From: an uncultured Actinomycetes bacterium
GTDB taxonomy: Bacteria > Actinomycetota > Actinomycetes > Nanopelagicales > Nanopelagicaceae
DNA length: 39,403 nt
NCBI GenBank assembly: GCA_937888825.1
Contig: CALBFE010000042.1
Location: 1-39,403 of the forward strand
Direction: 5' to 3'
This document shows positions 7,576 to 34,581 of the stretch, in pieces. Below the pieces are notes generated by a model. The model was given only the letters and a program-made list of their open reading frames with translations. It had not been told where the DNA came from and searched no databases. The stretch's first letter is position 1, and each line of letters begins with the position of its first letter. The translations under genes and the position numbers were made by a program.

Positions 7576-7593
7576 GAAAACTCCTCACTTTCT

Positions 7594-7605: not shown

Positions 7606-7637
7606 AGGACATGCTCCTCTTTGGAGGCTAGTGAAAA

Positions 7638-7658
7638 TAGGGTCTTTGTACCTATATA
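7638..7658 (+). promoter_or_regulatory. Probable narGHJI promoter with short palindrome
   Basis: TATATA (7653-7658) is the best -10, giving a start near 7665. It is preceded by TTTGTAC (7645-7651), which also follows the divergent transporter -10, and by TAGG...CCTA (7638-7641, 7651-7654), which brackets it as a short palindrome. A separate CTCC/GGAG inverted repeat is centred at 7620 between the two promoters. No FNR consensus site is recognisable. Confidence 0.3.
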
Positions 7659-7659
7659 G

Positions 7660-17934: not shown

Positions 17935-18086
17935 CTCAAGGTTGAGACTTATCCAAAACGTTACCTCTCGCCGCCTAATTTCTCAGGGCGTTTGTTGAGT
18001 TTATTCGTACATAACTACTAGGCTGACTAATACACAGAGCTCCTATCTCAGCGTCTAGTTGATGTAGGGGAGCCCCTTGAAGGAGG
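17935..18086 (+). promoter_or_regulatory. Promoter and structured leader of the nucleoside operon
   Basis: This 176-bp gap (17915-18090) is the longest gene-free stretch here. It contains a palindrome CTCAAGGTTGAG (17935-17946) and a -10 candidate TAGGCT (18019-18024), the same hexamer as at the nucleoside hydrolase promoter, giving a leader of about 60 nt; TACTAG (18016-18021) with TTGTTG 18 bp upstream (17992-17997) is the alternative. In the leader, CTCCT (18040-18044) can pair with the GGGAG at 18068-18072 or with the Shine-Dalgarno AGGAG (18081-18085), but not both. No known riboswitch core is recognised. Confidence 0.35.
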
Positions 18087-18090: not shown

Positions 18091-19146
18091 TTGAAGAAAG
18101 TATTTCGTCTCGTAGCAGTTATCGCTGCAGCAACTCTTGCAGCAACTGCATTTGTAGCACCATCAGCAACTGCAGCATCAAAGGTAAAAGTTGGACTTGC
18201 TTATGACATCGGTGGCCGCGGAGACAAGTCTTTCAATGACTCTGCTGCAGCTGGTCTAGATGCTGCCAAGAAGAAATTTGGCGTTAAGGCTAAAGAAGTA
18301 ACAGTTACAACAGGTTCAGATTCAGAGCGCGAAGACAAGCTCCGCTTGCTAGCAAAAGCTGGATACAACCCAATCATCGCAGTTGGTTTCTTGTATGCAG
18401 GCCCACTAAAGGCTGTTGCATCAGATTATCCAGACACTCAGTTCGGAATCATTGATGATGCATCAGTAGATCTTCTCAACGTTGCTGGTCTTGTATTTGC
18501 TGAAGAGCAAGGTTCATACCTAGCTGGCGTTGCAGCAGCACTTGCATCAAAGTCAGGGAAAATCGGTTACATCGGTGGAGTTCGTATTCCACTACTACAG
18601 AAGTTTGAAGCAGGATTCGTTGCTGGTGTTAAGGCAACAAAGAAGTCTGCAACTGTTGATGTTAAGTATGTAACTGAGTTCCCAGACTTCTCTGGTTTCA
18701 ATGACCCAGCTAAGGCAAAGGTTATTGCTAAGGGAATGATCGATAAGGGCACAGATGTTATTTACTCTGCTGCTGGTGGTTCAGGTGCGGGTAACTTCGC
18801 AGCCGCAACTGATGCAGCAAAGGCTGGCAAGAAGGTTTGGACTATCGGAGTTGACTCTGATCAGTACCTAACAGCTTCAAAAGCTGAGAAGAAGAACATG
18901 CTTACATCAATGATCAAGCGCGTTGACCGTGCTGTTTATGACGTAATTGCAACTGCAGTTGTAGGTTCTTCAGTTAATGACATTCTAGATGCCGAGGCTG
19001 GTATCTACGGTCGTCAGTACAACTTGGCGTTAGATGGTGTTGGAGTTTCATACTCTGGCAAATACATCAACAAGTACAAGTCTGCAATCAACAAGGCTGC
19101 AGCAGGGATTAAGGCTGGCAAGATCAAGGTTCCAACAAAGCCATAA
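18091..19146 (+). CDS. BMP-family nucleoside-binding protein of an ABC importer
   Basis: A 351-aa extracytoplasmic substrate-binding protein of the BMP (PnrA/TmpC-like) family, which binds purine and other nucleosides. Family features are GLAYDIGGRGDKSFNDSAAAG (35-55), GSDSEREDKLRLLA, and AEEQGSYLAGVAAALASKSG. An N-terminal Sec signal (KKVFRL, a hydrophobic stretch, then an Ala-Thr-Ala site ending at residue 28) is clear. Unusually there is no lipobox cysteine; the whole protein has none, so lipid anchoring is impossible. TTG start behind a strong ribosome site (AAGGAGG), chosen because it gives the intact signal peptide. It opens the nucleoside operon; a large hairpin follows. Confidence 0.9.
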   Translation: MKKVFRLVAVIAAATLAATAFVAPSATAASKVKVGLAYDIGGRGDKSFNDSAAAGLDAAKKKFGVKAKEVTVTTGSDSEREDKLRLLAKAGYNPIIAVGFLYAGPLKAVASDYPDTQFGIIDDASVDLLNVAGLVFAEEQGSYLAGVAAALASKSGKIGYIGGVRIPLLQKFEAGFVAGVKATKKSATVDVKYVTEFPDFSGFNDPAKAKVIAKGMIDKGTDVIYSAAGGSGAGNFAAATDAAKAGKKVWTIGVDSDQYLTASKAEKKNMLTSMIKRVDRAVYDVIATAVVGSSVNDILDAEAGIYGRQYNLALDGVGVSYSGKYINKYKSAINKAAAGIKAGKIKVPTKP

Positions 19147-19166
19147 TCACTCACTAAATAGTGGCG

Positions 19167-19207
19167 TTTGGCCCAACAATGGAGTTAAATCTCCTTGTTG
19201 GGCCAAA
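19167..19207 (+). terminator. Large hairpin between the binding-protein and ATPase genes (attenuator or 3'-end stabiliser)
   Basis: Left arm 19167-19179 and right arm 19195-19207 are perfectly complementary over 13 bp (TTTGGCCCAACAA). After one unpaired T (19180), four more pairs close on a TTAAAT loop. TGTTTTT follows, an imperfect U-tract. It lies 20 bp after the binding-protein stop and about 20 bp before the ribosome site of the ATPase gene, so it probably stops a fraction of transcripts or protects the upstream mRNA, keeping the binding protein in excess. Confidence 0.85.
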
Positions 19208-19243
19208 TGTTTTTAATTATCAACTCAAAGGAGAGTTCCTAAA

Positions 19244-20746
19244 GTGTCAGTAGCTGTTGAACTGCGACATATCTCCAAGCGCTTCCCAGGCGTGATAGCC
19301 AATAAAGACGTCTCTATGAAAGTTGAAACGGGGACTGTTCATGCTCTTGTTGGTGAAAACGGTGCAGGAAAATCCACCGTAATGAAGATTTTGTATGGAA
19401 TGCAGCACCCAGATGGCGGAGAAATTTTAGTCAATGGCCAAGCCGTTAATTTTAAAAACCCAAATGATGCAATCGATGCCAGCATTGGCATGGTCCACCA
19501 GCACTTTATGTTGGCAGATAACTTCACAGTTTTAGAAAATATCATTTTGGGTGCTGAGCCTCAGCGTGGAATTACAATTGACTTTGCCTCAGCCCGTAAA
19601 AAAGTTGCTGACATGTCTGCGGCATATGGTTTAGATGTTGATCCAGATATTTTGGTTGAAGAGCTAGGCGTAGGGCAGCGCCAGCGTGTTGAAATTTTGA
19701 AGGTTCTTTTTCGCGGTGCTCGAATTTTGATTTTTGATGAACCAACAGCGGTGCTAGTTCCTCAGGAAGTTGATGACTTATTTAATGCACTCAAAGGTCT
19801 TCGCGCCGAAGGAATGGCAATTATCTTTATCTCTCACAAACTCGATGAAGTATTACGCGTTGCCGATGATGTAACTGTGGTTCGTGCGGGATCGACTGTT
19901 GCCCAAGTGAAAGCAAAAGATGTTACCGCAAGGCAGCTAGCTGAACTCATGGTGGGCAGTGAACTTCCACAGCCAACCACCCATGGTGATACTCGTCGCC
20001 CAGAGGTCACACTTTCACTTAAAGATGTTTCGGTTCCAACTAAATCTGGTCGTGATTTGATCTCCCATATCTCTTTCGACCTGCAAGCAGGCGAAGTTAT
20101 TGGAATAGCTGGAGTTGAAGGCAATGGCCAAGCTGAGTTAGTTGAAGCAATCATGGGTTTGCGTGATTACACGGGCCAGATTGAATTTAAAGGCGAAAAC
20201 ATAGACCACTACACCGTGGCTCATCGCCACGATGCCGGAATTGGCTTGATTCCAGAGGATCGCCAACGACAAGCATTGATGATGGCATCGCCTCTTTGGG
20301 AAAATAGAATTCTTGGGCATCAAAGAAGGAAGCCCATAATGCGTGGTTTTATTTTAGATAAAAAGGCAACAATTGCAGATACTCGAGTAATCATGGATGA
20401 GTTTGATGTTCGCGCACCAGGGCCACACACTTTGGCAGCAGCGCTGTCAGGTGGTAACCAACAAAAATTTATCGTAGGCCGTGAAATGAGCAAAGCCCCT
20501 GCACTTCTTGTTGCATCACACCCAACTCGTGGCGTGGATGTTGGTGCACAAGCTGCAATTTGGGAAGAACTTCGCCGAGCACGTGAAAAAGGAATGGCAG
20601 TGGTATTAATCTCTGCTGACCTAGAAGAGCTCATTGGAATGTCTGATCGACTTCTAGTGATGCTACGCGGAGCGATAGCTGCAGAACTTAATCCTCAAAA
20701 GACAACACCTGAGCAACTTGGTTCTGCGATGACAGGCGCACAATGA
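19244..20746 (+). CDS. Nucleoside ABC importer ATPase (double-domain, NupA/YufO type)
   Basis: A 500-aa protein with two tandem ATPase domains, as in the RbsA/MglA/YufO group. Domain 1 (about 5-240): Walker A GENGAGKST, signature in the GVGQRQRVEILK segment, Walker B ILIFDEPTAVLVP, H-loop IIFISHKLDEVL. Domain 2 (about 255-495): a degenerate Walker A GVEGNGQAEL, signature LSGGNQQKF and LLVASHPTRGVDVG; the degenerate second site is normal for this family. Energises nucleoside uptake with the two permeases that follow. GTG start after AAAGGAG. The stop overlaps the next gene by 4 bp. Confidence 0.92.
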   Translation: MSVAVELRHISKRFPGVIANKDVSMKVETGTVHALVGENGAGKSTVMKILYGMQHPDGGEILVNGQAVNFKNPNDAIDASIGMVHQHFMLADNFTVLENIILGAEPQRGITIDFASARKKVADMSAAYGLDVDPDILVEELGVGQRQRVEILKVLFRGARILIFDEPTAVLVPQEVDDLFNALKGLRAEGMAIIFISHKLDEVLRVADDVTVVRAGSTVAQVKAKDVTARQLAELMVGSELPQPTTHGDTRRPEVTLSLKDVSVPTKSGRDLISHISFDLQAGEVIGIAGVEGNGQAELVEAIMGLRDYTGQIEFKGENIDHYTVAHRHDAGIGLIPEDRQRQALMMASPLWENRILGHQRRKPIMRGFILDKKATIADTRVIMDEFDVRAPGPHTLAAALSGGNQQKFIVGREMSKAPALLVASHPTRGVDVGAQAAIWEELRRAREKGMAVVLISADLEELIGMSDRLLVMLRGAIAAELNPQKTTPEQLGSAMTGAQ

Positions 20747-21846
20747 AAAAACCATCAATCTCCCAGGTACTTCTAGCAGTTGCGGCGCCTGTAGCTGCAG
20801 CAGTAGTTTCAATTGTTATCTCTAGTTTTGCAGTCTTAGCATCCAAGAAATCCCCAATGGATGCTTATAAGACAATGTGGGAGTTTGGAACTGAAGCCGG
20901 CTCGCTACTTGAAGTTCTTAATACGGCTACCCCTTATTACATTGCAGCCATTGCAATTGCTGTGACTTTTAGGGCCGGTTTATTTAATATTGGTGTTGAA
21001 GGCCAACTGCGTTTAGGCGCCCTCTTCAGCGCATACCTAAGCGCTAAATTTGTTTTGCCACCAGTGCTTCATGTTCTGGCCGTGTTTCTCATTGCTATGA
21101 CTGTCGGTGGATTATGGGCGGCAATTGCGGCCTACTTAAAAGTTAAGCGCGGTGTGAGTGAAGTTATCTCAACAATCATGTTGAACTCACTTGCCGTTGG
21201 TCTGACCTCCTTCCTGTTCTCTCAGTATTTTGCTGAAATCACTGAAGGCTCTAATAACTTAACCACCAAGGTTCTTCCAGCCTCTGCACAGATTCCTGAC
21301 CTGATGCCATTATTGAATAAATTGGGCGTGGAAGATCAGCCTGGCGGCGGCGTATATGGCATGTTACTGGTCGCAATTGCACTTGGAATTGCTTTCTGGT
21401 TCATCGTTAACCGCACACGTTTTGGTTTTGAATTACGGGCATCAGGCGCAAATCCGATAGCGGCTCGTGTGAGCGGCGTTAATTCCAAGAAAATGATTTT
21501 TATAGCTCTAGTAATTTCAGGTGCAATTGCGGGCTTGTCCGGTCTTCCGGCTGTGCTGGGTGACACTCATTCATACACAATGGGATTTAGATCAGGTATT
21601 GGCTTTTCTGCAATTGCGGTAGCGCTATTGGGTCGAAATGGCGCAGTAGGAATGGGATTTAGTGCTTTGTTATTTGGTTTCCTTGAAGTGAGCTCACGAT
21701 CACTAGAACTCATCGATATTGCCCCTGAAACTTATGTGATTATGCAAGGTTCTATATTACTTAGCTCAGTTATCGCCTATGAAGTTATTCGTCGTTACAA
21801 GATAACACTGCAGAGTAAAGAGCTAGCAAAGGTGGTGGCAGCATGA
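20743..21846 (+). CDS. Nucleoside ABC importer permease 1 (YufP/NupB type)
   Basis: A 367-aa multi-helix permease of the BPD_transp_2 family (ribose/nucleoside type). The family core is in TATPYYIAAIAIAVTFRAGLFNIGVEGQ, given here by its last part FRAGLFNIGVEGQ (about 77-89), and in GVSEVISTIMLNSLA (the EAA-like cytoplasmic loop contacting the ATPase). Pairs with the next permease as a heterodimer. ATGA overlaps on both sides with its neighbours show translational coupling. Confidence 0.9.
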   Translation: MKKPSISQVLLAVAAPVAAAVVSIVISSFAVLASKKSPMDAYKTMWEFGTEAGSLLEVLNTATPYYIAAIAIAVTFRAGLFNIGVEGQLRLGALFSAYLSAKFVLPPVLHVLAVFLIAMTVGGLWAAIAAYLKVKRGVSEVISTIMLNSLAVGLTSFLFSQYFAEITEGSNNLTTKVLPASAQIPDLMPLLNKLGVEDQPGGGVYGMLLVAIALGIAFWFIVNRTRFGFELRASGANPIAARVSGVNSKKMIFIALVISGAIAGLSGLPAVLGDTHSYTMGFRSGIGFSAIAVALLGRNGAVGMGFSALLFGFLEVSSRSLELIDIAPETYVIMQGSILLSSVIAYEVIRRYKITLQSKELAKVVAA

Positions 21847-23078
21847 AAACTAAAGCAACCAAGCTCTTACTTAATGCAACACTCTTAATTCTTGTCATAT
21901 CGATAATTCGCTTAATCACTGGAGCAAGTGACTTAACTAGCATTGGAACGGCCTCTGCGGCGCTCCTTCTCTCAGTTCCAATTGTTTTAGCTGGACTTGG
22001 TGGGTTGTTCTCTGAGCGCTCTGGTGTTGTAAACATTGGCCTTGAGGGCATGATGATTCTTGGTGCATGGGCTGGTGGCTTTATTGGATCTAAGCACGGA
22101 CCATGGCTTGGTTTAGCAGCTGCAATTTTCTTTGGCGCAGTAGGTGCTCTTGTGCATGCAATTGCAACAATTTCTTTTGGTGTAGATCATGTGGTCTCTG
22201 GTGTTGCTATCAACATCATTGCTGCTGGATTAGTTCGTTATCTTTCCACAATCTTGTACCAAGGTGGATCCTGGCCAGGGCCATCACAATCACCAGATGT
22301 TGGTCCAATCTCAAACAATGGCCTTCCCGTTCTTTCTGGTGGAACTTACTTTGGTTGGAAGAGTCCAGATATTTTGACGCCTATCGCTGAAAAACAGTGG
22401 TTTTTCATCTCTGATGTTGCCTCAATTATCCGTGGCTTAACTGGAGATCTTTCATATGTAACTGTTATTGCAGTTGCAATAGTTCCAATCTCATTCTTTA
22501 TCCTTTGGAAAACATCATTTGGACTTCGACTACGCAGCGCTGGTGAGGCACCAATTGCTGCTGAATCATTGGGCGTAAATGTTTACTTAATGAAATATTC
22601 AGGTGTTCTAATCTCAGGTGGCTTGGCTGGATTAGGTGGTGGATTCTTAGCAATTGTTGCGGCAAATCACTATCAAGAAAATCAGGTAGCCGGGCGAGGA
22701 TACATCGGACTTGCAGCATTACTTTTTGGAAATTATCGCCCAGGTGGAATTTTGATGGGTGCCGGTTTGTTTGGATTTGCCGATGCGCTGCAATTACGTG
22801 ATTCAGCCTCGATCCATGCCCTCATTCTCTTGATTGTTGTAATTCTTGCCTACCTTGTTTATCGCGATGTGCGCAAGGGCAAATATCTTTCTGCAGCAAT
22901 TAGTGGCGTGATGTCAGCCGGCTTTATGTGGTTCTACTTAGCAGTTGATGTTCTACCGGGACAGTTAGTGACGATGACTCCTTACATTGCAACGCTTCTA
23001 GTTATGTCACTTGCCTCTCAACGACTACGAATGCCAGCAGCTGACGGTATTCCATACCGTCGCGGCGGATTGCGATGA
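21843..23078 (+). CDS. Nucleoside ABC importer permease 2 (YufQ/NupC type)
   Basis: A 411-aa multi-helix permease of the same family. GLFSERSGVVNIGLEGMMI (about 54-72) and SFGVDHVVSGVAINIIAAG mark the conserved core, and AAESLGVNVYLMKYSGVLIS is the second cytoplasmic segment. It is longer than minimal family members because of extra helices at the C-terminus (after about residue 330: YRDVRKGKYLSAAISGVM onward). 4-bp overlaps with the upstream permease and with cdd. Confidence 0.9.
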   Translation: MKTKATKLLLNATLLILVISIIRLITGASDLTSIGTASAALLLSVPIVLAGLGGLFSERSGVVNIGLEGMMILGAWAGGFIGSKHGPWLGLAAAIFFGAVGALVHAIATISFGVDHVVSGVAINIIAAGLVRYLSTILYQGGSWPGPSQSPDVGPISNNGLPVLSGGTYFGWKSPDILTPIAEKQWFFISDVASIIRGLTGDLSYVTVIAVAIVPISFFILWKTSFGLRLRSAGEAPIAAESLGVNVYLMKYSGVLISGGLAGLGGGFLAIVAANHYQENQVAGRGYIGLAALLFGNYRPGGILMGAGLFGFADALQLRDSASIHALILLIVVILAYLVYRDVRKGKYLSAAISGVMSAGFMWFYLAVDVLPGQLVTMTPYIATLLVMSLASQRLRMPAADGIPYRRGGLR

Positions 23079-23476
23079 TCGCTATAGACTGGGATGCACT
23101 GCGCACCGCTGCTGTTGCAGCCATGAAAACCGCTTACGCCCCTTATTCAAAATTTCCAGTAGGCGTGGCTGCGTTAGTAGATGATGGTCGCATTGTCTCT
23201 GGATGCAATGTTGAAAATGCTAGTTATGGTTTAGGTCTTTGCGCAGAGTGCGGATTAGTTTCAAACCTCATTGCTTCAGGTGGCGGACGTTTAGTTGCAA
23301 TCTCATGTGTTGATGGACAGGGAAATCACTTGGCACCATGTGGGCGATGCCGCCAACTTTTATTTGAGCATGGTGGAACTAAAGCGCTTTTGATGACAGA
23401 TGATGGGCCACAGACAATGGCGGCTATGTTGCCTTGGGCTTTTGGTCCTGATGATTTAGAGCGCAACGAGCGCTAA
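23075..23476 (+). CDS. cdd: Cytidine deaminase
   Basis: Zinc enzyme converting (deoxy)cytidine to (deoxy)uridine in pyrimidine salvage. At 133 aa it is the short tetrameric type. The zinc site is visible as Cys56-Ala-Glu58 with Cys89 and Cys92 (PCGRCRQ), Glu58 being the proton shuttle, and the substrate motif NVENASYG (45-52). It follows the permease with a 4-bp overlap and precedes deoA with no gap (TAA-ATG), so imported cytidine is deaminated and then phosphorolysed. Confidence 0.95.
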   Translation: MIAIDWDALRTAAVAAMKTAYAPYSKFPVGVAALVDDGRIVSGCNVENASYGLGLCAECGLVSNLIASGGGRLVAISCVDGQGNHLAPCGRCRQLLFEHGGTKALLMTDDGPQTMAAMLPWAFGPDDLERNER

Positions 23477-24781
23477 ATGTCCCAGGTTGAGGCTTTCTCA
23501 GCAGCTGAAGTAATTGCTGCAAAACGTGATCGACATTCATTAACTGACCCACAAATCGATTGGGTAATCGATGCATACACACGTGGGGCAGTAGCTGATG
23601 AACAAATGTCTGCGCTACTAATGGCAATTTTGCTCAACGGTATGGAATCTCGAGAGATTTCTCGATGGACTGATGCAATGATCAATAGCGGTGAGCGCAT
23701 GAACTGGTCAGCGCTAACACGACCAACAGTTGATAAGCATTCAACAGGTGGAGTCGGGGACAAGATCACTTTGCCTCTAGCGCCGCTGGTTGCCGCTTGT
23801 GGTGCTGCTGTGCCTCAACTATCTGGTCGAGGTCTTGGTCATACTGGTGGAACTTTAGATAAATTAGAATCAATTCCCGGTTGGCGAGCTTCACTATCAA
23901 ATGAAGAAATGCTTAAAGTTTTGCAAGATTGCGGAGCAGTTATTTGCGCAGCTGGAGCAGGATTAGCACCTGCGGATAAGAAACTTTATGCACTGCGCGA
24001 TGTGACGGCGACAGTAGAGGCTATTCCACTCATTGCATCATCGATTATGAGTAAGAAGATTGCAGAAGGAACAAGTGCACTAGTGCTAGACGTTAAGACT
24101 GGTGCTGGTGCATTCATGAGTGATCCTGAGAAGGCTAAAGAGTTAGCCCATGTAATGGTGGGTCTTGGAAAACGGGCTGGAGTAAAGACCATCGCACTTG
24201 TAACAGCCATGGATATTCCCTTGGGCTTAACTGCAGGTAATGCTTTAGAGGTGCGCGAATCTGTAGAGGTATTGGCAGGCGGTGGCCCATCAGATATCGT
24301 CGAACTCACTGTTCTACTTGCACGTGAGATGTTAGAAACTGTTGGGATTACTAACGCTGATCCAGCTGATATGTTAAAAAATGGAAAAGCAATGGATGTT
24401 TGGCGCCAGATGATTAGTGCCCAAGGCGGAGATCCTGATGCAAAACTTCCAATTGCAAAAGAGAATTTAGTTGTTACAGCTCAATCAAGTGGAACGATTC
24501 TTTCAATGGATGCTATGAAAGTGGGATTGGCTGCTTGGCGCTTAGGTGCTGGCAGATCACGCCAGGGCGAAGCAGTTCAGGCCGGAGCTGGAATTGAAAT
24601 TCACGCTAAACCAGGCGATAGCGTGGCCGCAGGAGCACCGCTCTACACATTGCACACAGACACTCCAGCAGCCTTTGCCCGCGCACAAGAATCGCTGACA
24701 AATTCAGTAACTATTGGCGATTTACCAAAGGGTGGAAAAATAGATAGATTGCCACTTGTAGTCGAGCGAATTACGGATTGA
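23477..24781 (+). CDS. deoA: Thymidine / pyrimidine-nucleoside phosphorylase
   Basis: A 434-aa cytoplasmic enzyme that phosphorolyses thymidine/(deoxy)uridine to base and (deoxy)ribose-1-phosphate. The family signature segment [20 protein letters not shown] (about 114-133) is intact, as is the phosphate-binding [11 protein letters not shown] and the substrate region [20 protein letters not shown]. The C-terminal alpha/beta domain is complete. The ATG directly follows the cdd stop and has no ribosome site of its own, so it depends on coupling. Thymidine- versus uridine-preferring type cannot be told from the sequence alone. Confidence 0.92.
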
Positions 24782-24791: not shown

Positions 24792-25886
24792 GTGAGTCTT
24801 ACAAGTAAACCTTCACCAGCCCAGATTAAGCGCGTCCCAAAAGTACTGCTACATGATCACCTAGATGGTGGACTACGACCACAAACAATCATTGATATCG
24901 CAGGCGAAATTGGTTACACCGCGCTTCCAACTCATGATGCCACAGAACTTGCAACGTGGTTCCGTGAATCTTGTGACTCAGGTTCACTAGTTCGCTACCT
25001 AGAGACTTTTTCCCACACTATTGCAGTCATGCAGCGACGTGAAGATATTATTCGAGTTGCCCGTGAGTGTGCCTTGGACTTGGCACGAGATGGTGTTGTC
25101 TATGCAGAAGTTCGCGGCGCACCTGAGCTCTTCACAGAAAAAGGCTTATCAATGGCCGATGTTGTTGATGCAACTATTGAAGGTTATAAGCAGGGAATAG
25201 CAGAGGCAAAAGCTGAAGGTCATGAGATTCATGTCTATTCGTTGCTCTGCGGAATGCGCCAGAATAAACTTTCGCAAGAGGTCGCTGAACTAGTGATTAA
25301 GTATCGCGATAAGGGTGTTGTTGGCTTTGATATTGCAGGTCCGGAAGATGGATTCCCACCGAGTGATCAGAAAGATACTTTTGATTATTTGCGTAAAGAG
25401 GATGCTCACTTCACAATCCACGCAGGTGAGGCATATGGACTTCCTTCAATCTGGGAAGCAATTCAATTGTGTGGTGCTGAGCGCTTAGGCCATGGCGTTC
25501 GAATCATTGATGACATCGATTTCTCAGGCCCAGAGCCAAAATTAGGACAACTAGCCTCATATGTTCGAGACCGCAGAATTCCACTAGAGCTATGTCCAAC
25601 TTCTAATCTTCAAACTGGGGCGGCAAAGAGTTATGCCGAGCATCCCATCGGAGCCTTGGCCCGCTTGCGTTTTAGAGTCACTCTCAACACTGATAACCGC
25701 TTAATGAGCCAAACTTCAATGTCATTTGAGATGGAAGAAGCAGTGAAGGCCTTTGGTTGGGATTTTGCAGAGCTTCAGCGCATTACTATTAATGCGATGA
25801 AGAGTGCGTTTATTCCATATCCAGAGCGTTTAAAGATTATTGATGGCGTTATCAAACCTGGCTATGCGAAAATCTCTGCTGAGTAA
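24792..25886 (+). CDS. add: Adenosine deaminase
   Basis: Zinc metalloenzyme converting (deoxy)adenosine to (deoxy)inosine, feeding purine nucleoside phosphorylase encoded in the minus-strand operon. At 364 aa, active-site residues are His21 and His23 (LLHDHLDGG), His210 and Glu213 (HAGEAYG), His234 (RLGHGVR) and Asp301 (NTDNR). The DDP usually seen after the zinc-ligand Asp is DNR here, which I have seen in actinobacterial members. GTG start 10 bp after deoA. The stop overlaps the P450 start (TAATG). Confidence 0.93.
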
Positions 25887-27070
25887 TGATTGATTTCAAT
25901 AATCCTACTTTTGTCGCCGATCCATACGAGCAGTTAAAGGCTCTACGTGAGATTGGCAAACCCGTCTGGCATGAGGGGATGCAGATATTTCTTGCAGCAC
26001 GCCACAGTGATGCAAATGATGTCTTTAGAAATAAGTCATTAGGTCGTATTTTCACAGACAAGTCGCCAGAATTTGAGTGGGAAACTTTCAACTGGTTGCA
26101 CTCAGATTCAATTCTAGATAGCGAACCACCTAAGCACACACGTTTGCGTTCATTGGTGGCAAAGGCATTTAATCGAAACAAGATTGAAGGAATGCGACCT
26201 GCGGTAGAGCGCATCACGCAGCAATTACTGGATGCAATCGATGAGAAAGTTAAATTAGGGGAGACCTTTGATTTAATTGCAGATTATGCAGAACCCCTGC
26301 CTGTGAAAATCATCGCTGACTTGCTAGGTTTTCCAGAATCAGAAGAGCATTTACTTCGGCCTTGGTCACAGTCGATTGTGAAGATGTATGAAGTTAATCC
26401 ATCAGAGCAGTATCAAGTTGAGGCAAAGAAGGCGGCTAGTGAGTTTGCTGAGTATGTGCGCAGTTTGGCTGAACACCGTAAAACAAATCCAGGCCAGGAT
26501 CTCATTACTGATTTAGCAATGGTTGAAGAGAATGGCGAAAAGTTAAACTCCCATGAGTTAGTGGCAACATGCGTGCTTCTTCTTAACGCCGGTCATGAAG
26601 CAAGCGTGAATGCATTTGGAAATGGAATGGTTGCAGCCCTTGAACGCCCTGATCAAGCTGAACTTCTGCGCAAAAATTCCCGTACAATAACTGAGACCGC
26701 CCTTGAAGAATTCATGCGATTTGATGCCCCGCTTCACTTATTTGAGCGCACAGCAACCGTTGATACTGAGTTAGGCGGAGTAAAGATAGAGAAGGGGCAG
26801 AAGATTGCAGCCCTGATTGGTTCAGCTAATCGAGATGCCTCAGTCTTTGAAATGGCAGATGAGATGGATTTAACTCGCGATCCAAACCCCCACATTGGTT
26901 TTGGAGCAGGCATTCATTTCTGTTTAGGCGCACCTCTTGCCCGTTTAGAAATGAGTGTTTCTTTGCCGGCGTTGTGGGAGAAATATCCCAATATGCAATT
27001 AGCTGGTGCGCCAGTGCGCAGACCTACTTTTGTATTACGAGGTTATGAAAGCGTTTCAATCTCTGCTTGA
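25886..27070 (+). CDS. Cytochrome P450, soluble bacterial type
   Basis: A 394-aa haem monooxygenase. Haem loop FGAGIHFCLG (339-348) with ligand Cys346; ExxR at Glu275-Arg278 (EEFMR); I-helix AGHEAS (235-240), where the usual threonine of the oxygen-activating pair is serine. Length and lack of an N-terminal membrane anchor fit soluble class I P450s that need separate ferredoxin and reductase, which are absent here. It is translationally coupled to adenosine deaminase (1-bp overlap), although P450s have no known step in nucleoside breakdown; its substrate cannot be predicted. The last 28 bp overlap the convergent ribokinase gene. Confidence 0.93.
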   Translation: MIDFNNPTFVADPYEQLKALREIGKPVWHEGMQIFLAARHSDANDVFRNKSLGRIFTDKSPEFEWETFNWLHSDSILDSEPPKHTRLRSLVAKAFNRNKIEGMRPAVERITQQLLDAIDEKVKLGETFDLIADYAEPLPVKIIADLLGFPESEEHLLRPWSQSIVKMYEVNPSEQYQVEAKKAASEFAEYVRSLAEHRKTNPGQDLITDLAMVEENGEKLNSHELVATCVLLLNAGHEASVNAFGNGMVAALERPDQAELLRKNSRTITETALEEFMRFDAPLHLFERTATVDTELGGVKIEKGQKIAALIGSANRDASVFEMADEMDLTRDPNPHIGFGAGIHFCLGAPLARLEMSVSLPALWEKYPNMQLAGAPVRRPTFVLRGYESVSISA

Positions 27071-27939
27071 GAAGGATATGAGGATTGTGCACCTTTGCGG
27101 GTGACACTCATGGATGCAACCTTGATCCCTAGCTTCATCGCATCTTCTGGGCTCTTTCCACTTGCTAATCCAAAAGCAAAAACCCCAACAAAGGCATCAC
27201 CAGCACCGGTTGTGTCCACAGCATTAACTTTTGGGGCACTCACTCGAGTGAGATTTCCATCGGAAGTAATTAACACAGCACCTTCTGATCCTAAAGTCAC
27301 AATTGAATTCTTACCTGGTCTAAATGCCTTTAAGACTTCATCACTTGTAGGTGCTTGACCATGGAGTTCATTGAACTCAGTTTCATTAGGGATAATCCAG
27401 TCGGTTACTTCCAATAGTTCTCTACTAAGAGGTTGGAATGGTGCTGGATTGAGAATGGTTAGGCATCCACGTTTTTTAGCTACAGTAAATGCAGCAAGAG
27501 TTACTTCCTGTTTGATTTCACATTGGGCAACTACAACTGCTAAGTCAGCGATTGACTCAATTGCTTCAATAGCCTTTTTAGATTCAATCTCATGATTTGC
27601 GCCAGGAATGATTACGATTCGATTCTCACCATTGGCATCGACCCAAATATGTGCCACACCATTTGGAGTATCACTACGTTCTATATATTCTGAATCAATT
27701 CCGAGCTTTTTGAAATTTTCAGCTATTGAGTCACCGAATAAGTCATTACCTAACTTTCCAACAAAGTGAACTTGGGCTCCGCAATGGGCGGCAATAACGG
27801 CTTGATTAGCTCCTTTGCCGCCAAAACCAGTCGTAAAGAGGTCGCCTTCTAAGGTTTGTCCAGGAGCAGGAATCACTTTGGCATAGGCAGTTAAATCAAT
27901 CATTGCACTGCCAACTACCGCTATTACTGCTTTGCTCAT
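27043..27939 (-). CDS. rbsK: Ribokinase (PfkB family)
   Basis: Phosphorylates ribose to ribose-5-phosphate; a 298-aa cytoplasmic enzyme. Substrate motif GGKGANQAV (40-48), NPAP (164-167), PNETE (184-188), and the ATP/anion-hole motif DTTGAGDAF (242-250) with catalytic Asp248. Ribose would come from the divergent nucleoside hydrolase, so the two genes form a functional pair. The start at 27939 has no ribosome site but a perfect -10 (TAGCCT) at -12 to -7, indicating a leaderless mRNA. The 3' end overlaps the P450 gene antisense by 28 bp, with no terminator between them. Confidence 0.93.
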   Translation of the reverse strand: MSKAVIAVVGSAMIDLTAYAKVIPAPGQTLEGDLFTTGFGGKGANQAVIAAHCGAQVHFVGKLGNDLFGDSIAENFKKLGIDSEYIERSDTPNGVAHIWVDANGENRIVIIPGANHEIESKKAIEAIESIADLAVVVAQCEIKQEVTLAAFTVAKKRGCLTILNPAPFQPLSRELLEVTDWIIPNETEFNELHGQAPTSDEVLKAFRPGKNSIVTLGSEGAVLITSDGNLTRVSAPKVNAVDTTGAGDAFVGVFAFGLASGKSPEDAMKLGIKVASMSVTRKGAQSSYPSQAEIETLS

Positions 27940-27944
27940 ACCGC

Positions 27945-27951
27945 TAGGCTA
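27945..27951. promoter_or_regulatory. Shared bidirectional -10 box (TAGGCTA) between rbsK and the nucleoside hydrolase gene
   Basis: The whole divergent intergenic region is 18 bp (27940-27957). TAGGCT (27945-27950) reads as a -10 toward the hydrolase at -13 to -8 from its ATG, and on the other strand TAGCCT (27951-27946) is at -12 to -7 from the rbsK ATG. Both transcripts would start at or within one base of the start codon. A weak -35 for rbsK (TTGAAG, minus strand 27973-27968) lies inside the hydrolase gene. Confidence 0.65.
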
Positions 27952-27957
27952 TCGCTT

Positions 27958-28911
27958 ATGGAAAAAACTTCAATCATTCTTGATGTTGATACCGGTGTTG
28001 ATGATGCCTTTGCAGTCCTTTTTGCCGCAATGCATCCAGCAATCAACTTAATTGGAGTCACCTGCGTAGATGGCAACACCAATGTTGACCAGGTCGTTGC
28101 AAATACATTGAAGGTTTTAGATGCTGCAGGCGCTGGTGATATTCCAGTTGCTAGAGGTGCAGTCCGTCCGCTACTCGGCAAATCTGAATATGCCGAGTAT
28201 GTGCATGGCGCAGATGGAATGGGCGACCTCGGAATTACCCCCTCTCATCGTAAAGTTGATTCTCGTTCAGCAATTGAGCTTCTTCGCGATTTAATTGAGG
28301 AATCAAAGGAGCCAGTAACACTTGTTCCAATTGCTCCGCTTACAAATATTGCTCTGTTCTTGCGGGCATTTCCAGAAACCGCCAAGAAACTACATAGGAT
28401 CGTTCTTATGGGTGGATCAGCATCTGCCGGTAATGCAACGGCTGCAGCAGAGTTTAATATTTGGCACGATCCAGAAGCAGCTGCAATTGTCTTTCAAAGC
28501 GGTGTCCCAATAACGATGTATGGACTAGATGTCTTTATGCGCCCAGGTGCAACAAGTGAGAATGCAGCACAACTACTCAAATCATCTGATCCTGCTCCAC
28601 AGTTTGCTGCAACTTTGATTCAAGCATTTATTGAGCGCTTGCATGTCTCTCCTATAACTTTGGGGGATTACGGGGCAGTAGCGTGTGTAATACATCCAGA
28701 GCTCTTTACAACTGAAGTCTTTGATGTTGTTGTTGATACATCACAAGGTCCAGCACGTGGTCAAACTATCTGTGATCGCAGAGCACCATTTTTAAAGTCC
28801 ATAGAACCAATTGATTTGGTTGATTCTGCATCAGTTAGAGTGGTTCTAGACCTAGATGTTGGCGCGGTTGAACAACTATGGTTTAAAACCATTGATAAAG
28901 GCTGGCTATAG
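27958..28911 (+). CDS. Inosine-uridine preferring nucleoside hydrolase
   Basis: Cleaves the N-glycosidic bond of ribonucleosides to free base and ribose, which the divergent ribokinase can phosphorylate. At 317 aa, the calcium/ribose motif is DVDTGVDDAF (9-18; commonly DTDPGxDD), with VLMGGSASAGNATAAAEFNI and WHDPEAAAIVF as further family segments. No signal peptide is present, so it acts on imported nucleosides. The start at 27958 is a predicted leaderless ATG. Its TAG stop overlaps the TAG of the convergent aldehyde dehydrogenase-like gene in the hexamer CTATAG. Confidence 0.92.
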   Translation: MEKTSIILDVDTGVDDAFAVLFAAMHPAINLIGVTCVDGNTNVDQVVANTLKVLDAAGAGDIPVARGAVRPLLGKSEYAEYVHGADGMGDLGITPSHRKVDSRSAIELLRDLIEESKEPVTLVPIAPLTNIALFLRAFPETAKKLHRIVLMGGSASAGNATAAAEFNIWHDPEAAAIVFQSGVPITMYGLDVFMRPGATSENAAQLLKSSDPAPQFAATLIQAFIERLHVSPITLGDYGAVACVIHPELFTTEVFDVVVDTSQGPARGQTICDRRAPFLKSIEPIDLVDSASVRVVLDLDVGAVEQLWFKTIDKGWL

Positions 28912-29748
28912 CCCTATTGGGTGCCAGACAGTTTTGTTTTCCATAAAAGCAAGAATGCGTCCAGGATCAGCGTTTTTAAAACTATAGATTCTCTTAATGT
29001 TTTCAGCTCCCGCAAATTTTATCTCGGCGTGCTTTTTCGCACCTAAGCCTGAGATATCTAAGCCATCAATATCCATATGTGAAGCCATCCAAGGGGTTAT
29101 TTCATCTTTCTTTCCAGTCAAAATGTTTATTACTCCAGCTGGAACATCACTTGTTGCAATTACTTCAGCAAAACTCATGGCAGAAAGTGGCGCCTTGGTG
29201 CTTGCTAGAACTATGACGGTATTACCACCAACAATGATTGGCGCAAGTGAATCAATTAAACCAAGCAAAGAAGGAACCTCTGGAGCAATCGCTGCAATGA
29301 CGCCCATGCTCTCAGGGATTGTGAAGTTGTAATAAGGACCAGCAACAGGGTTGAGTGCACCTGAGAGTGAAGAGATCTTGTCGCTCCATCCCGCATACCA
29401 AACAAGTCGGTCAACTGAATCTGTCACTTCTTTTTCAGCTTTTGCTTTAGTAACACCAGTTACTGTGACAATCTCATCGACGAACTGAGCACGACGACCC
29501 TCAAGCATTTCTGCTAGTCGGTAAAGAATCTGGCCTTTGTTATAGGCAGTAGCTTTGTTCCATCCATGTTGGGCAGCACGAGCTGCAACAACGGCATCTT
29601 TTAAATCTTTACGAGATGCTAAGCATGGGTTTGCAATGAAGATGCCTTTGGCGTTCTTAACTTCATATGTGCGCCCAGACTCAGTACGTGGGAACGCGCC
29701 ATTGATAAATAGTTTGTATGTCTTTTTCACATCAATTCGATTACTCAT
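28906..29748 (-). CDS. Half-length aldehyde dehydrogenase-like protein, catalytic domain missing (pseudoenzyme)
   Basis: A 280-aa protein covering only the N-terminal NAD-binding part of the aldehyde dehydrogenase fold (KLFINGAFPRTESGRTYEV onward). The usual PWNF with its catalytic Asn is APEV here, there is no LELGGK base motif, and the catalytic-cysteine domain is absent: after DISGLGAKKHAEIKFAGAE it ends with a distinct tail, ILAFMENKTVWHPIG. The tail looks ordered rather than random, and I recall similar short homologues beside deoC in other actinobacteria, so this is probably a conserved partner, not decay. It overlaps the upstream full-length dehydrogenase gene by 8 bp; a subunit or scaffold role is inference. 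No remnant of the missing half lies downstream. Confidence 0.82.
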   Translation of the reverse strand: MSNRIDVKKTYKLFINGAFPRTESGRTYEVKNAKGIFIANPCLASRKDLKDAVVAARAAQHGWNKATAYNKGQILYRLAEMLEGRRAQFVDEIVTVTGVTKAKAEKEVTDSVDRLVWYAGWSDKISSLSGALNPVAGPYYNFTIPESMGVIAAIAPEVPSLLGLIDSLAPIIVGGNTVIVLASTKAPLSAMSFAEVIATSDVPAGVINILTGKKDEITPWMASHMDIDGLDISGLGAKKHAEIKFAGAENIKRIYSFKNADPGRILAFMENKTVWHPIGL

Positions 29749-31192
29749 GTGAGACTCCCTTTAAGTATGCAGACAAACCATGTCGTCCGCCTTCACGACC
29801 CCAGCCGGATTCTTTGTATCCACCAAATGGGGAAGTAGGATCAAATTTATTGAATGTATTTGCCCAGATGACACCGGCGCGAAGTTGTTGAGAAGCCCAT
29901 AAAATCTTAGATCCCTTTTCACTCCAGATGCCGGCAGAGAGTCCGAAAGGAGTGTTATTGGCTTTATCTATACCTTCTTGAGGTGTTCTAAAAGTTAATA
30001 TTGAAAGCACTGGACCAAAGATTTCTTCGCGGGCAATGCGATGGGCTTGAGTTACACCTGTAAAGATTGTTGGCGCAAACCAGAACCCTTTACCTGGCAA
30101 ATCACAAGGCGCACTCCAACGCTGCGCACCTTCAGAATCCCCGACAGCAGTAAGTTCACGAATCTTTAATAGCTGTTCCTTGCTATTAATAGCACCTAAA
30201 TCTGTGTTCTTATCCATTGGATCGCCCACACGGATTTTAGCCATTCTATTTTTTAGTTTTTCTAATACTTCATCGGCAATGCTCTCTTGAAGGATTAAGC
30301 GTGAACCAGCGCAGCAGACATGGCCTTGATTAAAGAAAATTCCATTAACAATGCCTTCTACGCTCTCATCAATTGCTGCATCTTCAAAGATTATATTGGC
30401 AGCTTTACCACCGAGCTCTAAGGTCACACTCTTATTTGTTGGAGCAACTGCGCGGGCGATAATCTTTCCAACTTCAGTAGATCCTGTAAATGCAATCTTG
30501 TCGATTCCTGGATGATTCACAATAAGCGCGCCAGTTGAACCATCACCAGTAACAATGTTTACAACACCTGCTGGAAGTTCTGCCTGTTGGCATACTTCGG
30601 CAAATAAAAGCGCCGTGAGTGAAGTTGTTTCAGCTGGCTTTAGAACAACCGTGTTTCCTGCAGCAAGTGCAGGTGCTACTTTCCACGCCAACATTAATAA
30701 TGGGAAGTTCCAAGGAATAATCTGTCCTGCAACACCATGAGCTTTAGGTGTTGTTCCCAGGCCTGCATACTCAAGCTTGTCAGCCCATCCTGCGTGATAA
30801 AAGAAGTGTGCTGCAGCAAGTGGAACATCTACATCACGCGATTCGCGAATTGGCTTTCCATTATCAAGGGTTTCAAGTACTGCAAATTCACGTGAGCGCT
30901 CTTGCATGATGCGAGCGATACGAAACAGGTACTTTCCACGCTCTTTACCACTCATTTTTGACCAAGTAGTTGTATATGCCTTGCGCGCAGCCTTTACAGC
31001 AGCATCGATATCGTTTTTACCGGCAAGTGCGATCTGAGAAAGAACTTCTTCAGTAGCTGGGTTGATTGTGGGGAAGTGCTTACTTCCGGCAACAAATTTG
31101 CCACCAATGAAATGTCCGTACTTAGGCTTGATCGAGACTAGGGCGCGCGACTCTGGAGCCGGTGCGTATTCAAAAGTCAATTTTTCCCCCAT
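29741..31192 (-). CDS. Aldehyde dehydrogenase, full length
   Basis: A 483-aa NAD(P)-dependent dehydrogenase. Asn162 (PWNF), Glu259 (LELGGK) and nucleophile Cys293 (NQGHVCCAGSR) are all in place, along with FTGSTEVGK (235-243) and the C-terminal FGGYKESGWGREGG. It lies between deoC (1-bp overlap, TAATG) and the half-length paralogue (8-bp overlap), so its likely substrate is the acetaldehyde released by DeoC, producing acetate. It differs in its Cys context from the AldB-type enzyme at 802-2325. Confidence 0.92.
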   Translation of the reverse strand: MGEKLTFEYAPAPESRALVSIKPKYGHFIGGKFVAGSKHFPTINPATEEVLSQIALAGKNDIDAAVKAARKAYTTTWSKMSGKERGKYLFRIARIMQERSREFAVLETLDNGKPIRESRDVDVPLAAAHFFYHAGWADKLEYAGLGTTPKAHGVAGQIIPWNFPLLMLAWKVAPALAAGNTVVLKPAETTSLTALLFAEVCQQAELPAGVVNIVTGDGSTGALIVNHPGIDKIAFTGSTEVGKIIARAVAPTNKSVTLELGGKAANIIFEDAAIDESVEGIVNGIFFNQGHVCCAGSRLILQESIADEVLEKLKNRMAKIRVGDPMDKNTDLGAINSKEQLLKIRELTAVGDSEGAQRWSAPCDLPGKGFWFAPTIFTGVTQAHRIAREEIFGPVLSILTFRTPQEGIDKANNTPFGLSAGIWSEKGSKILWASQQLRAGVIWANTFNKFDPTSPFGGYKESGWGREGGRHGLSAYLKGVSHE

Positions 31193-32139
31193 TAGTCGAT
31201 CGTCACGTACTGAGGGCTAGCGTAGTAGCCATCATCCATTTTCATGCGTTGCATTAATAAATCATTTAACAATGCACTAGCCCCAATACGAAAGAGAGAT
31301 GGCTTGAGCCATTCTGGCCCAGCGGTCTCATTGACTAGGACTAGCTGCTTAATGGCATCTTTAGTGTTTCTGATTCCACCGGCTGGCTTCACACCAATTC
31401 GCACCTGGGTCATTGCATAAAAATCTCTCACTGCCTCAAGCATCACAAGAACAACAGGGGCGGTAGCAGCTGGTGCAACTTTACCTGTTGAGGTCTTAAT
31501 GAAATCAGCTCCAGCGGCCATGGCTAAAAATGAGGCTTTGCGAACGTTGTCATAGGTCACAAGCTCGCCAGTTTCAAAGATAACTTTTAAATGTGCCTTA
31601 GTACCGCATATGTCACGGATCTTCACGATTTCATCAAAGACTTCGATATATCGACCTGAAAGAAATGCACCGCGATCAATCACCATATCAATCTCTGAAG
31701 CCCCAGCCTCAACCGCATCTTTCGTATCTTGAATCTTTACTGCCATCGAGGCACGACCAGATGGAAAAGCAGTTGAAACAGCAGCCACACCGACATGATG
31801 GCCACCAATGAGATCTAAGTGCGTGCGGGCAATTCCAACCATGTCGTTGTAAACACAGACCGCACCCACACTTGGAACAGATGCATCAGTTGGGTCTGGG
31901 CGCACAGCTTTTGTGCATAGGGCCTTAACTTTTCCAGGAGTATCTGCACCTTCTAAAGTTGTTAAATCCACCATGGTGATTGCAGTGTCAATCGCCCAGC
32001 GTTTAGAAGTTGTCTTGATACTGCGAGTAGCAAGCATGGCTGCACGAGCATCAGCGCCAACTTGGTCAACTCCTGATAGCGAACCCAGATATTTCTTTAG
32101 GGATGCTTCAGTACCATCGACTAAACCATAAAAACTCAC
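31192..32139 (-). CDS. deoC: Deoxyribose-phosphate aldolase
   Basis: Splits 2-deoxyribose-5-phosphate into glyceraldehyde-3-phosphate and acetaldehyde. A 315-aa enzyme of the longer (human DERA-like) kind. Schiff-base Lys215 in FIKTSTGK, the second active-site Lys251 in GVKPAGGIR, and Asp151 in EIDMVID are intact. 4-bp overlap with the upstream phosphopentomutase gene and 1-bp overlap with the downstream aldehyde dehydrogenase put consecutive pathway steps in consecutive genes. Confidence 0.95.
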   Translation of the reverse strand: MSFYGLVDGTEASLKKYLGSLSGVDQVGADARAAMLATRSIKTTSKRWAIDTAITMVDLTTLEGADTPGKVKALCTKAVRPDPTDASVPSVGAVCVYNDMVGIARTHLDLIGGHHVGVAAVSTAFPSGRASMAVKIQDTKDAVEAGASEIDMVIDRGAFLSGRYIEVFDEIVKIRDICGTKAHLKVIFETGELVTYDNVRKASFLAMAAGADFIKTSTGKVAPAATAPVVLVMLEAVRDFYAMTQVRIGVKPAGGIRNTKDAIKQLVLVNETAGPEWLKPSLFRIGASALLNDLLMQRMKMDDGYYASPQYVTID

Positions 32140-33746
32140 GATAGCAATTCCTTCAATGGGGCTCGTAACTGATCCAGAACCGCTTGCGCAGTTGCAGAAT
32201 CCTTTGCAATTGCCTCAATGTAACACTTCATCTTTGCTTCTGTGCCACTTGGGCGAATGATGATTCGAATTCCACCATCTAGCCAAATACGTAAGCCATC
32301 AGTGGGGGGCAAACCATCACTTGGTTTGGCAAGGTCGTCAATGGATGTAACTGAATAACCAGCAATTTCCTTAGGGGGATTACGGCGCAAATTTCCCATG
32401 ATTACACCCACTTGAGAAAGATCGCTCAGGCGTATTGAAATTTGTTCAGTTGCATGAAAACCATGACGAGCCCAAACTTCATCGAGTAGATCAAGAAGTG
32501 TCTTATTCTGCGCAGCTAAATCAGTTGCAATCTGAGCTAGCTTGATAGCTGCAGATATTCCATCCTTATCATTAACGGTATTTGCATCAACGGCATATCC
32601 AAGGGCTTCTTCATAACCAAAAGTTAATCCATCAATTTTTGCTAACCACTTAAAGCCTGTCAGTGTTTCTTTAAAATCTAGTTTGTAATGAGCAGCAATT
32701 TTGCCCAAAATTGATGAGGAAACGATAGAGTTTGCAAGGATTCCCGTGGTTGTTGCTCGAGCGATTGTTTCGCCAAGGATTACACCTAACTCATCCCCAC
32801 GCAGCATTCTCCAGCCTTTTATTGGATCCTTGACTGCAGCAGCGCAACGATCTGCATCTGGATCATTGGCAATTACTAGATCAGCATCAAATGTGCGAGC
32901 AGTCTCTAAAGCTAAATCAATTGCACCTGGTTCTTCAGGGTTAGGAAAGGCAACTGTTGGAAAATCGGGATCTGGTTTTGCTTGAGCATCCACAAGGATA
33001 GGTTGCGGGAATCCAGCTTTATGAAAAATAAGTTGAAGTGTCTCAGTTCCCACCCCATGCATTGCTGTGTAAACAATCTTTAGGTTTCCAGGCCTCTGGG
33101 CAAGAGCTGCTGTGATCCTGACATATTTATGAAGGACCTCTTCGCCTAAGGTTGTCCATTCTTTTCCACGAGGTTGTGAAGCAAGAGATGTGATTAAATC
33201 AATTTTTTGTGCAATTGAATCATCTGTAGGAGAAATTATCTGTGAACCGCGGTAATGGATTCCATCAACAGTGCCACCTAAATAAACTTTATAACCATTA
33301 TCTTGTGGAGGATTATGGCTAGCGGTAACCATAATTCCCACATCGCATTTCAATTCATTGGTAGCAAAAGCTAGTACTGGCGTAGGAAGTGGGCGGGGCA
33401 AGACATAAACCTTCATGCCAGCACCACTCATAATTTGCGCAGTTTCAAAAGTGAAATCCTCAGAGCCATAACGAGCATCACGGCCAATTACTACTGAAGT
33501 TAAATTACGTTCCTTCATATATGCCGCAATTCCTGCAGCAGTACGACCAACAACTGCCCGGTTCATTCCTGAAGGCCCTGGGCGAATGGGACCACGCAAG
33601 CCAGCTGTACCAAACTGCAAAAAGCCATTAAATGATGCTCGTAGTTCTACTTCATTATTGGTATCTAGCCATTGCTGTAATTGGGCAGCAGTCTTTGGAT
33701 CTGGATCATCAGCAATCCATGCTTGAACTTCTTGAGTCAGATCCAT
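32136..33746 (-). CDS. Phosphohexomutase-superfamily enzyme, PGM2-like, probable phosphopentomutase
   Basis: A 536-aa alpha-D-phosphohexomutase. Sugar-phosphate motif FGTAGLRGPI near residue 45, catalytic phosphoserine Ser143 in TASHNPPQDNGYK, metal loop NDPDADR with Asp295/297/299, and a C-terminal phosphate-binding RPSGTEAKMK. The GTAGLRG opening and TASHNPPQDNGYK are those of PGM2-type enzymes, some of which act mainly as phosphopentomutases. Position between purine nucleoside phosphorylase and deoC, with no deoB in the window, argues that it converts (deoxy)ribose-1-phosphate to the 5-phosphate. Often annotated phosphomannomutase; substrate is inferred from context. Confidence 0.88.
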   Translation of the reverse strand: MDLTQEVQAWIADDPDPKTAAQLQQWLDTNNEVELRASFNGFLQFGTAGLRGPIRPGPSGMNRAVVGRTAAGIAAYMKERNLTSVVIGRDARYGSEDFTFETAQIMSGAGMKVYVLPRPLPTPVLAFATNELKCDVGIMVTASHNPPQDNGYKVYLGGTVDGIHYRGSQIISPTDDSIAQKIDLITSLASQPRGKEWTTLGEEVLHKYVRITAALAQRPGNLKIVYTAMHGVGTETLQLIFHKAGFPQPILVDAQAKPDPDFPTVAFPNPEEPGAIDLALETARTFDADLVIANDPDADRCAAAVKDPIKGWRMLRGDELGVILGETIARATTTGILANSIVSSSILGKIAAHYKLDFKETLTGFKWLAKIDGLTFGYEEALGYAVDANTVNDKDGISAAIKLAQIATDLAAQNKTLLDLLDEVWARHGFHATEQISIRLSDLSQVGVIMGNLRRNPPKEIAGYSVTSIDDLAKPSDGLPPTDGLRIWLDGGIRIIIRPSGTEAKMKCYIEAIAKDSATAQAVLDQLRAPLKELLS

Positions 33747-33750
33747 GTTC

Positions 33751-34581
33751 TTAGAATAACTTCGGGATTACCCCTTTGAGAAGAGCGCCCATTCGATCTG
33801 CAGCGGCCTTTCCAGCGGCAATAACTTCTTCATGGTTTAGTTTTTCACCAGTAACACCCGCAGCTGCGTTAGTAACTAATGATATTCCAAGAACTTCAGC
33901 GCCAAGTGCGTGAGCAGCAATTGCTTCAGGAACTGTGGACATACCAACTAAATCTGCTCCCATAGTGCGCATCATTATAATCTCTGCTGGAGTTTCATAT
34001 GTTGGCCCACGCCAATGCACATAGACACCTTCTTCAAGTGAAGAATCTTCCTTCTTAACAATTTCACGAATGCGCTTGCTGTAGAGATCAGTTAAATCAA
34101 CAAAAGTCGCGCCAGATAATGGAGACACAGCAGTTAAAGAAATGTGGTCACGAATCAGAACGGGCTGACCAACTTTGTAGGCGTTATTTATTCCACCGCA
34201 AGCATTTGTCAAAATAACAACTTTGCATCCAGCTTTGACCGCTGTCCGGACGCTATGCACGACTGGTTCAACACCTTTACCTTCATAGAGATGTGTGCGT
34301 CCTAAAAAAACGAGTGCTCGTAGTTTCTTGCCATTTGCTTCAATTTCATAAGAGCGAACTTTTCCTGAGTGCCCCTCAACTGTTGGAGGAAGAAAGCCAG
34401 TTATGTCTTCAGCATTGCATTCATATGCTGGAGTTCCTAATGCATCAACCGCGCTCACCCAACCAGAACCCATTACTAAGGCGACATCATGGGATGCGAC
34501 TCCTGTACGTTCTGTGATTTCTTTTGCTGCAGTAGTTGCTGCGGCTAGTGGATCGGAATAGAGGAGTTCGCTATTTGTCAT
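33751..34581 (-). CDS. punA: Purine nucleoside phosphorylase, trimeric class
   Basis: Phosphorolyses inosine/guanosine and deoxy forms to base and pentose-1-phosphate. A 276-aa cytoplasmic enzyme of the homotrimeric (mammalian-like) class: GSGW phosphate loop near residue 38, [24 protein letters not shown] with the purine-binding Glu, and VTNAAAG with the Asn that marks 6-oxopurine preference. Hence adenosine must first be deaminated, matching the add gene in the plus-strand operon. 4-bp overlap with the upstream carboxylase gene, 4-bp gap to the mutase gene. Confidence 0.94.

Follow-up and report, generated by a model that had tools for sequence, protein, structure and literature searches.

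The binding-protein gene and its operon

The window, by which we mean the entire stretch of 39,403 nucleotides analysed here, carries on its forward strand an open reading frame for a BMP-type binding protein (18091-19146; 351 amino acids by translation, with a TTG start), immediately preceded by the Shine-Dalgarno-like sequence AAGGAGG (18080..18086, + strand, read in the sequence). Translation of its 5' end (18091..18174, +) gives a Sec signal peptide of residues 1-28, MKKVFRLVAVIAAATLAATAFVAPSATA/AS, where the slash marks the predicted cleavage; the site was placed by eye after the terminal ATA, and there is no lipobox Cys. The remainder, inclusive of the stop (18175..19146, +), encodes the mature BMP/PnrA-type nucleoside-binding protein, assigned from PF02608, solved relatives and charge and likewise free of Cys. 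Under our own rules the N-terminus has the Sec/SPase I pattern of n-region, hydrophobic core and AxA site, and the AxA-type site is kept across relatives. The preliminary description had reported a Sec signal, an Ala-Thr-Ala site and no Cys in 351 residues, and the translation bears this out. The in-frame stretch from the preceding stop to the TTG of this locus (L050) contains neither a Cys nor any other ATG, GTG or TTG; hence the upstream start with a lipobox that had been envisaged earlier is impossible. Judged by the Cys content of 23 window ORFs, about 5% of proteins of this length would have no Cys by chance; on its own the absence is weak evidence, and the real observation is the missing lipobox. 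As read from the sequence, it is nearly certain that the protein is not lipidated. The mature protein has 37 K, 7 R, 24 D and 9 E, a net charge of about +11 and a pI of 9.4. Its C-terminus is Lys-rich, as described before, but the Lys excess is spread along the entire protein rather than confined to a C-terminal tail.

Downstream on the same strand lie the double ABC ATPase of the importer (19244..20746, with two stretches matching PF00005), permease 1 (20743..21846) and permease 2 (21843..23078), both of PF02653, a cytidine deaminase (23075..23476, PF00383/PF08211) and a pyrimidine nucleoside phosphorylase (23477..24781, PF02885/PF00591/PF07831). These are followed at 24792..34581 by what we take, by eye, to be salvage genes: adenosine deaminase, ribokinase, nucleoside hydrolase, deoxyribose-phosphate aldolase, a phosphopentomutase-like protein and purine nucleoside phosphorylase, along with a presumed P450 and two presumed aldehyde dehydrogenases, likewise named by eye. 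On the other side of the binding-protein gene, 3144-14319 contains genes resembling those of a respiratory nitrate reductase (NarG, NarH, NarJ and NarI-like), accompanied by a two-component system and two MFS transporters of the nitrate/nitrite type (all names by eye), which is unexpected in a streamlined lake actinobacterium. A stand-alone MalK/MsmK-type sugar-importer ATPase (14370-15449, - strand; PF00005 with OB_MalK) has no adjoining permeases, and is possibly common to several sugar importers.

Between the binding-protein and transporter genes, folding energy reveals a strong hairpin followed by a T-run (19164..19210, +); the segment 19147-19225 folds at -35.8 kcal/mol (z -8.7), with a hairpin of about 20 pairs. 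It recurs at the same place in 30/30 relatives compared (36 loci in all), and was not among the hits of a simple terminator scan of the window. Its core, GGAGTTAAATCTCC or near variants thereof, is found in most of L002-L032, and the stems are kept despite substitutions in L029, L032, L010, L014 and L015. The hairpin may be more than a terminator. It is likely to act as an attenuator or 3' stabiliser, which would allow an excess of binding protein over transporter.

Family, fold and ligand

The protein matches Pfam Bmp (PF02608) over residues 34-293 with E 3.3e-57 and 194 bits against a cut-off of 24.1. Its AlphaFold2 model has a pLDDT of 90.8, residues 1-21 being the sole segment below 50. 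The closest solved chains include Lbp of C. thermocellum, PnrA of S. pneumoniae and TmpC/PnrA of T. pallidum, and a Foldseek search with the model places the same PnrA-type set on top at 29-34% identity; the matched structures were crystallised with guanosine, adenosine, uridine, thymidine and inosine. The fold, together with the cytidine deaminase and pyrimidine phosphorylase genes of the operon, points to a nucleoside ligand, and the protein thus probably serves an ABC importer for nucleosides as its substrate-binding component.

Host and lipoprotein machinery

The host genome (G000; 1.37 Mb, 99% complete) belongs to a "Ca. Planktophila"-like lake actinobacterium of the Nanopelagicaceae, acI group, a lineage that we take to lack an outer membrane. 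Nanopelagicaceae are among the most abundant freshwater bacteria. The close relatives of the binding protein, 81-95% identical, belong to Ca. Planktophila, to actinobacterium IMCC19121 (locus L012) and to numerous environmental MAGs. Three MAGs titled Streptomyces griseus, Bifidobacterium breve and Streptomycetaceae (L010, L018 and L015, respectively) carry Planktophila-like operons with BMPs 88-90% identical to that of the window, and these titles are likely to be wrong.

Profile searches of G000 recovered Lgt (E 1.6e-59), LspA (E 2.6e-31) and SPase I (PF10502, E 9.8e-40). As all three are present, both export routes are open and the absence of the lipobox is specific to the protein; with Lgt and LspA in the same genome, loss of the lipoprotein machinery is ruled out as its cause. 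Small genome size as the sole cause is likewise discounted by G040: this genome, 1.4 Mb in size and from another family, has a lipobox in each of the three of its binding proteins that were read (L141, L178 and L375).

Absence of the lipobox across Nanopelagicaceae

BMP loci were found in genome contigs in 36 cases, 33 of them with an N-terminus, and 31 of these 33 lack a lipobox, the exceptions being L030 (LITTGCSSSSSDN) and L031 (LVTTGCSSSSSDN). The same 31/33 rule out a sequencing error at the signal, an objection raised in the preliminary description, which had envisaged a Cys in close relatives. Comparison with other binding proteins of the genome and lineage, also proposed there, showed that the host itself has both kinds: five without a lipobox (the window BMP, L176, L192, L159 and L384, with domain net charges of +9, +14, +10, +8 and +2) and four with one (L127, L160, L161 and L341; -19, -12, -16 and -11).

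Six families were compared (PF02608, PF13458, PF01547, PF00497, PF13407 and PF00496), the census covering the better-scoring matches rather than all matches. Signal-peptide classes were assigned by our own rules and not by SignalP, four assignments being changed by hand. Among outgroups, a lipobox is present in 12/12 BMPs from other families of the class, and 76/84 binding proteins of the six families in other Actinomycetia were called lipobox; the remaining eight include L100 and L353, which have a lipobox by eye, the others having long or unclear N-termini. In Nanopelagicaceae, however, the PF13458 (branched-chain amino-acid type) proteins have a lipobox in 0/31 classified (32 sequences), those of PF00497 in 10/14, and the remaining families are mixed. 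The non-lipobox form is, by these sequence assignments, the common state of binding proteins throughout Nanopelagicaceae, most of which lack a lipobox. The earlier view that a non-lipoprotein is odd for a monoderm proves right, but the trait is not the peculiarity of one protein.

Net charge follows the anchor

Net charge here means K+R-D-E counted from the first Pfam-matched residue through to the C-terminal end, which excludes signal and linker. In the BMP set of Nanopelagicaceae, the 22 lipobox proteins fall at -19 to -5 and the 128 without at -4 to +17. Across the hand-reviewed, better-scoring matches of all six families in Nanopelagicaceae, 66/66 lipobox proteins are net negative (median -10), whereas 245 of the 255 without a lipobox are positive, three are zero and seven lie at -1 to -4 (median +7). 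Before review, the automatic counts were 64 lipobox proteins, all negative, and 259 without (245 positive, three zero, 11 negative), with 2 'TM?', 3 'no signal' and 12 LacI-type as further classes. The totals of 66 and 255 result from moving L391 and L421 by hand to the lipobox class, their lipobox having lain outside the automatic reading window, and from setting aside L099 and L378 as TM-like. Outside the 255 are also L159, L348 and L396 (SPase I type by eye) and the unclassified L097 and L407; L084 and L096, first called lipobox with the Cys within the hydrophobic core, are non-lipobox under a rule revised after seeing them. As the rows are not independent, these large counts describe the pattern and do not test it.

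In 25/25 genomes with both kinds, each lipobox protein is lower in charge than each free one, and all eight genomes with both BMP kinds follow the same rule. A tree of 162 mature BMP domains requires at least 13 changes of lipobox state, and 14 when weak branches are collapsed (164 BMPs were read, of which two truncated ones were dropped; the truncated L204 and two matches with an internal stop were left unread). Independent BMP pairs within Nanopelagicaceae differ in the sign of the charge in the same way in 9/9 cases (sign test p 0.004). PF13407, PF00496, PF01547 and PF00497 provided 5, 4, 6 and 2 independent pairs, none opposed; a few random pairings in these four families were without the difference. 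The sets are small, and PF01547 is the only one to reach p <0.05 alone (L393 was left out of its family's tree by hand). An expectation set before the PF13407 and PF00496 searches largely held: among the first loci, 8/8 lipobox proteins of PF13407 and 2/2 of PF00496 were negative, with 10/11 and 17/19 of those without a lipobox positive. The comparison shows, at the level of sequence-predicted anchoring, that lineages have switched repeatedly between a lipid-anchored, acidic and a free, basic form, with both traits changing together.

Switches at close range

L030 and L031 fall inside the BMP clade of the window on nested branches with support of 94, 93, 92, 84 and 81, although some intervening branches are weak and the direct sister is weakly placed (64). 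As they are nested within a clade of free BMPs, the lipobox was most likely regained in them. Relative to the consensus of their free relatives, the two have 38 fixed substitutions in common; 15 of these alter charge, 14 towards the negative. The protein goes from about +10 to -13, a drop of about 23. The changes are spread over residues 62 to 346, which rules out a C-terminal Lys tail as the anchor. The charges of the neighbouring ATPase (-14 and -13) and permease 1 (+9 and +9) do not leave the range seen at the other loci, and the G+C content is unremarkable.

Contig C1 of G065 carries a tandem pair of PF00496 paralogues (L429/L430), separated by about 4 kb, with net charges of +11 without and -12 with a lipobox; this tandem is a ready-made natural experiment. 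Orthologues of PF13407 divide in the same manner, those with a lipobox (L338, L339, L341, L342 and L387) at -7 to -15 and those without (L340, L343, L345 and L386) at +8 to +13. Only two proteins without a lipobox are strongly negative, L099 (-12) and L378 (-22), both of G086; their N-termini open with extended hydrophobic runs and lack a good cleavage site. By eye these two alone look TM-anchored, which would fit the notion that anchored means acidic. Such uncleaved-helix-like N-termini are perhaps a third way to hold a binding protein in Nanopelagicaceae.

How might the free proteins be held?

A basic composition is not a general property of the host's proteins: of the other window ORFs, 20/22 counted are net negative, and so are 11/12 cytosolic LacI-type homologues. 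A genome-wide drift of charge is ruled out by the contrasts within genomes, the unchanged ATPase and permease and the acidic cytosolic proteins. The families differ in ligand, to judge from their names (sugars, amino acids, peptides, nucleosides), and ligand therefore does not explain charge. Free periplasmic SBPs of E. coli are negative in 11/12 cases and zero in one, with none basic, so freedom alone does not render an SBP basic when an outer membrane is there to retain it.

The preliminary description had left three options for the protein, namely release, an uncleaved signal helix, and electrostatic holding near the wall. The coupling of charge to anchor over six families favours the last, since positive charge arises with loss of the anchor and goes with its return. 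The window protein would be exported by Sec, cut by signal peptidase I at ATA/AS and left unlipidated; the free, strongly basic 33 kDa protein would then be held between membrane and wall by attraction to putative anionic wall polymers and to the membrane. It could thereby form a soluble, diffusing pool that carries nucleosides to the two permeases, and the hairpin after its gene suggests that it is probably in excess over the transporter. In dilute lake water electrostatic forces reach far, by the Debye length argument. We give a probability of roughly 60% to this reading, that is, a free basic BMP exported, cleaved and retained electrostatically in the wall zone. Against it stand the seven unanchored proteins at -1 to -4 and the three neutral ones, and the charge could instead help the protein to dock on the permease or have some other role in the envelope. 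More broadly, cationic free binding proteins would be the monoderm counterpart of a periplasmic pool. The odds appear evenly balanced that Nanopelagicaceae as a whole have a functional periplasm without an outer membrane, in which most nutrient-binding proteins are free and held by charge in low-salt water, the state toggles reversibly, and net charge alone predicts the mode of holding.

The foremost alternative is that a tight wall or surface layer merely confines the proteins, with charge adapting to the compartment through solubility or docking to permease or membrane. The non-lipidated protein with its AxA site and the conserved hairpin, with the binding-protein excess that it suggests, would be at home there, as would oligotroph modelling, in which a high affinity depends on numerous free binding proteins within a periplasm (PMC8168909). 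However, confinement by itself does not predict that anchored/acidic and free/basic should switch on the same branch, and barrier-retained periplasmic SBPs of E. coli are not basic; we consider it possible, at odds of about one in five. The idea that the hydrophobic N-terminus stays in place as a membrane helix draws on the long hydrophobic starts of L099 and L378, from which TM anchoring may occur in the lineage, but these TM-like proteins are acidic like lipoproteins whereas the window BMP is basic, and its AxA-type site is clear and conserved among relatives. This part of the earlier proposal is accordingly weakened, and we regard it as improbable.

A still slighter chance attaches to ancestry, by which acidic lipoproteins would have been imported by gene transfer from other Actinobacteria and the basic ones would be native. 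Several lipobox clades (L200, L256, L257, L262 and L324) do group with outgroup sequences, but close relatives differ in both traits (L066/L067, L030/L031, L429/L430 and the L338-L345 set), L030/L031 are nested within the window clade, the neighbouring transporter subunits are unchanged in charge, and the independent-pair tests correct for relatedness. Simple release, with the protein diffusing into the water as a public good or being lost, accords with the finding of no anchor of any kind in the BMP sequence. For an oligotroph this would come at a high cost, Nanopelagicaceae maintain the state in most of the importers that were sampled, and it would leave the charge coupling unexplained; we hold this to be the least probable reading of all.

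Comparison with known systems

The textbook answer to how a monoderm retains its binding proteins is a lipid anchor. A lineage that has apparently dropped the anchor in most importers sampled, with charge changing each time, would offer a second one, and with it a clean comparative experiment. It would also bear on the high uptake affinity of small freshwater oligotrophs, as free binding proteins can outnumber transporters. For acI it predicts that salt should release the basic binding proteins from the cells but not the acidic lipoproteins. One acI study places transport proteins among the most highly expressed (PMC5574706), and term counts in the main text of this and a further acI genome/metatranscriptome paper (PMC5301498) returned no instance of the word lipoprotein. 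A literature search over titles and the starts of abstracts, with most subscription journals outside its scope, gave nothing on non-lipidated or charged binding proteins in acI and, within the same scope, no report of a coupling between anchor and charge.

The window BMP shares family and fold with the PnrA/BMP lipoproteins (PnrA, TmpC/PnrA, Lbp and BmpD), and the likeness extends to the importer, with its double ATPase and two BPD_transp_2 permeases; several of these relatives were named lipoproteins by their depositors, whereas the window protein has no Cys and is strongly basic. Substrate-binding proteins make up a large share of Gram-positive lipoproteins, according to a review (PMC7530257). 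With these the window BMP has in common the role in ABC import, but it lacks both the lipobox and the Ser/Gly linker and is of opposite net charge. With the free periplasmic MalE, LivJ, OppA and RbsB of E. coli it shares an SPase I type signal and a soluble mature protein; however, these E. coli proteins are held by the outer membrane and are neutral to acidic, while the window BMP is basic. The modelling work indicates that abundant binding proteins give oligotrophs their affinity and that this requires a periplasm (PMC8168909). The SAR11-type strategy of high binding-protein abundance resembles the present case in its many free binding proteins. The host lineage, in contrast, is one that we take to lack an outer membrane, and retention must come from elsewhere. 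Thus, the importer is of a known kind, whereas the way in which its binding protein appears to be held would be new.
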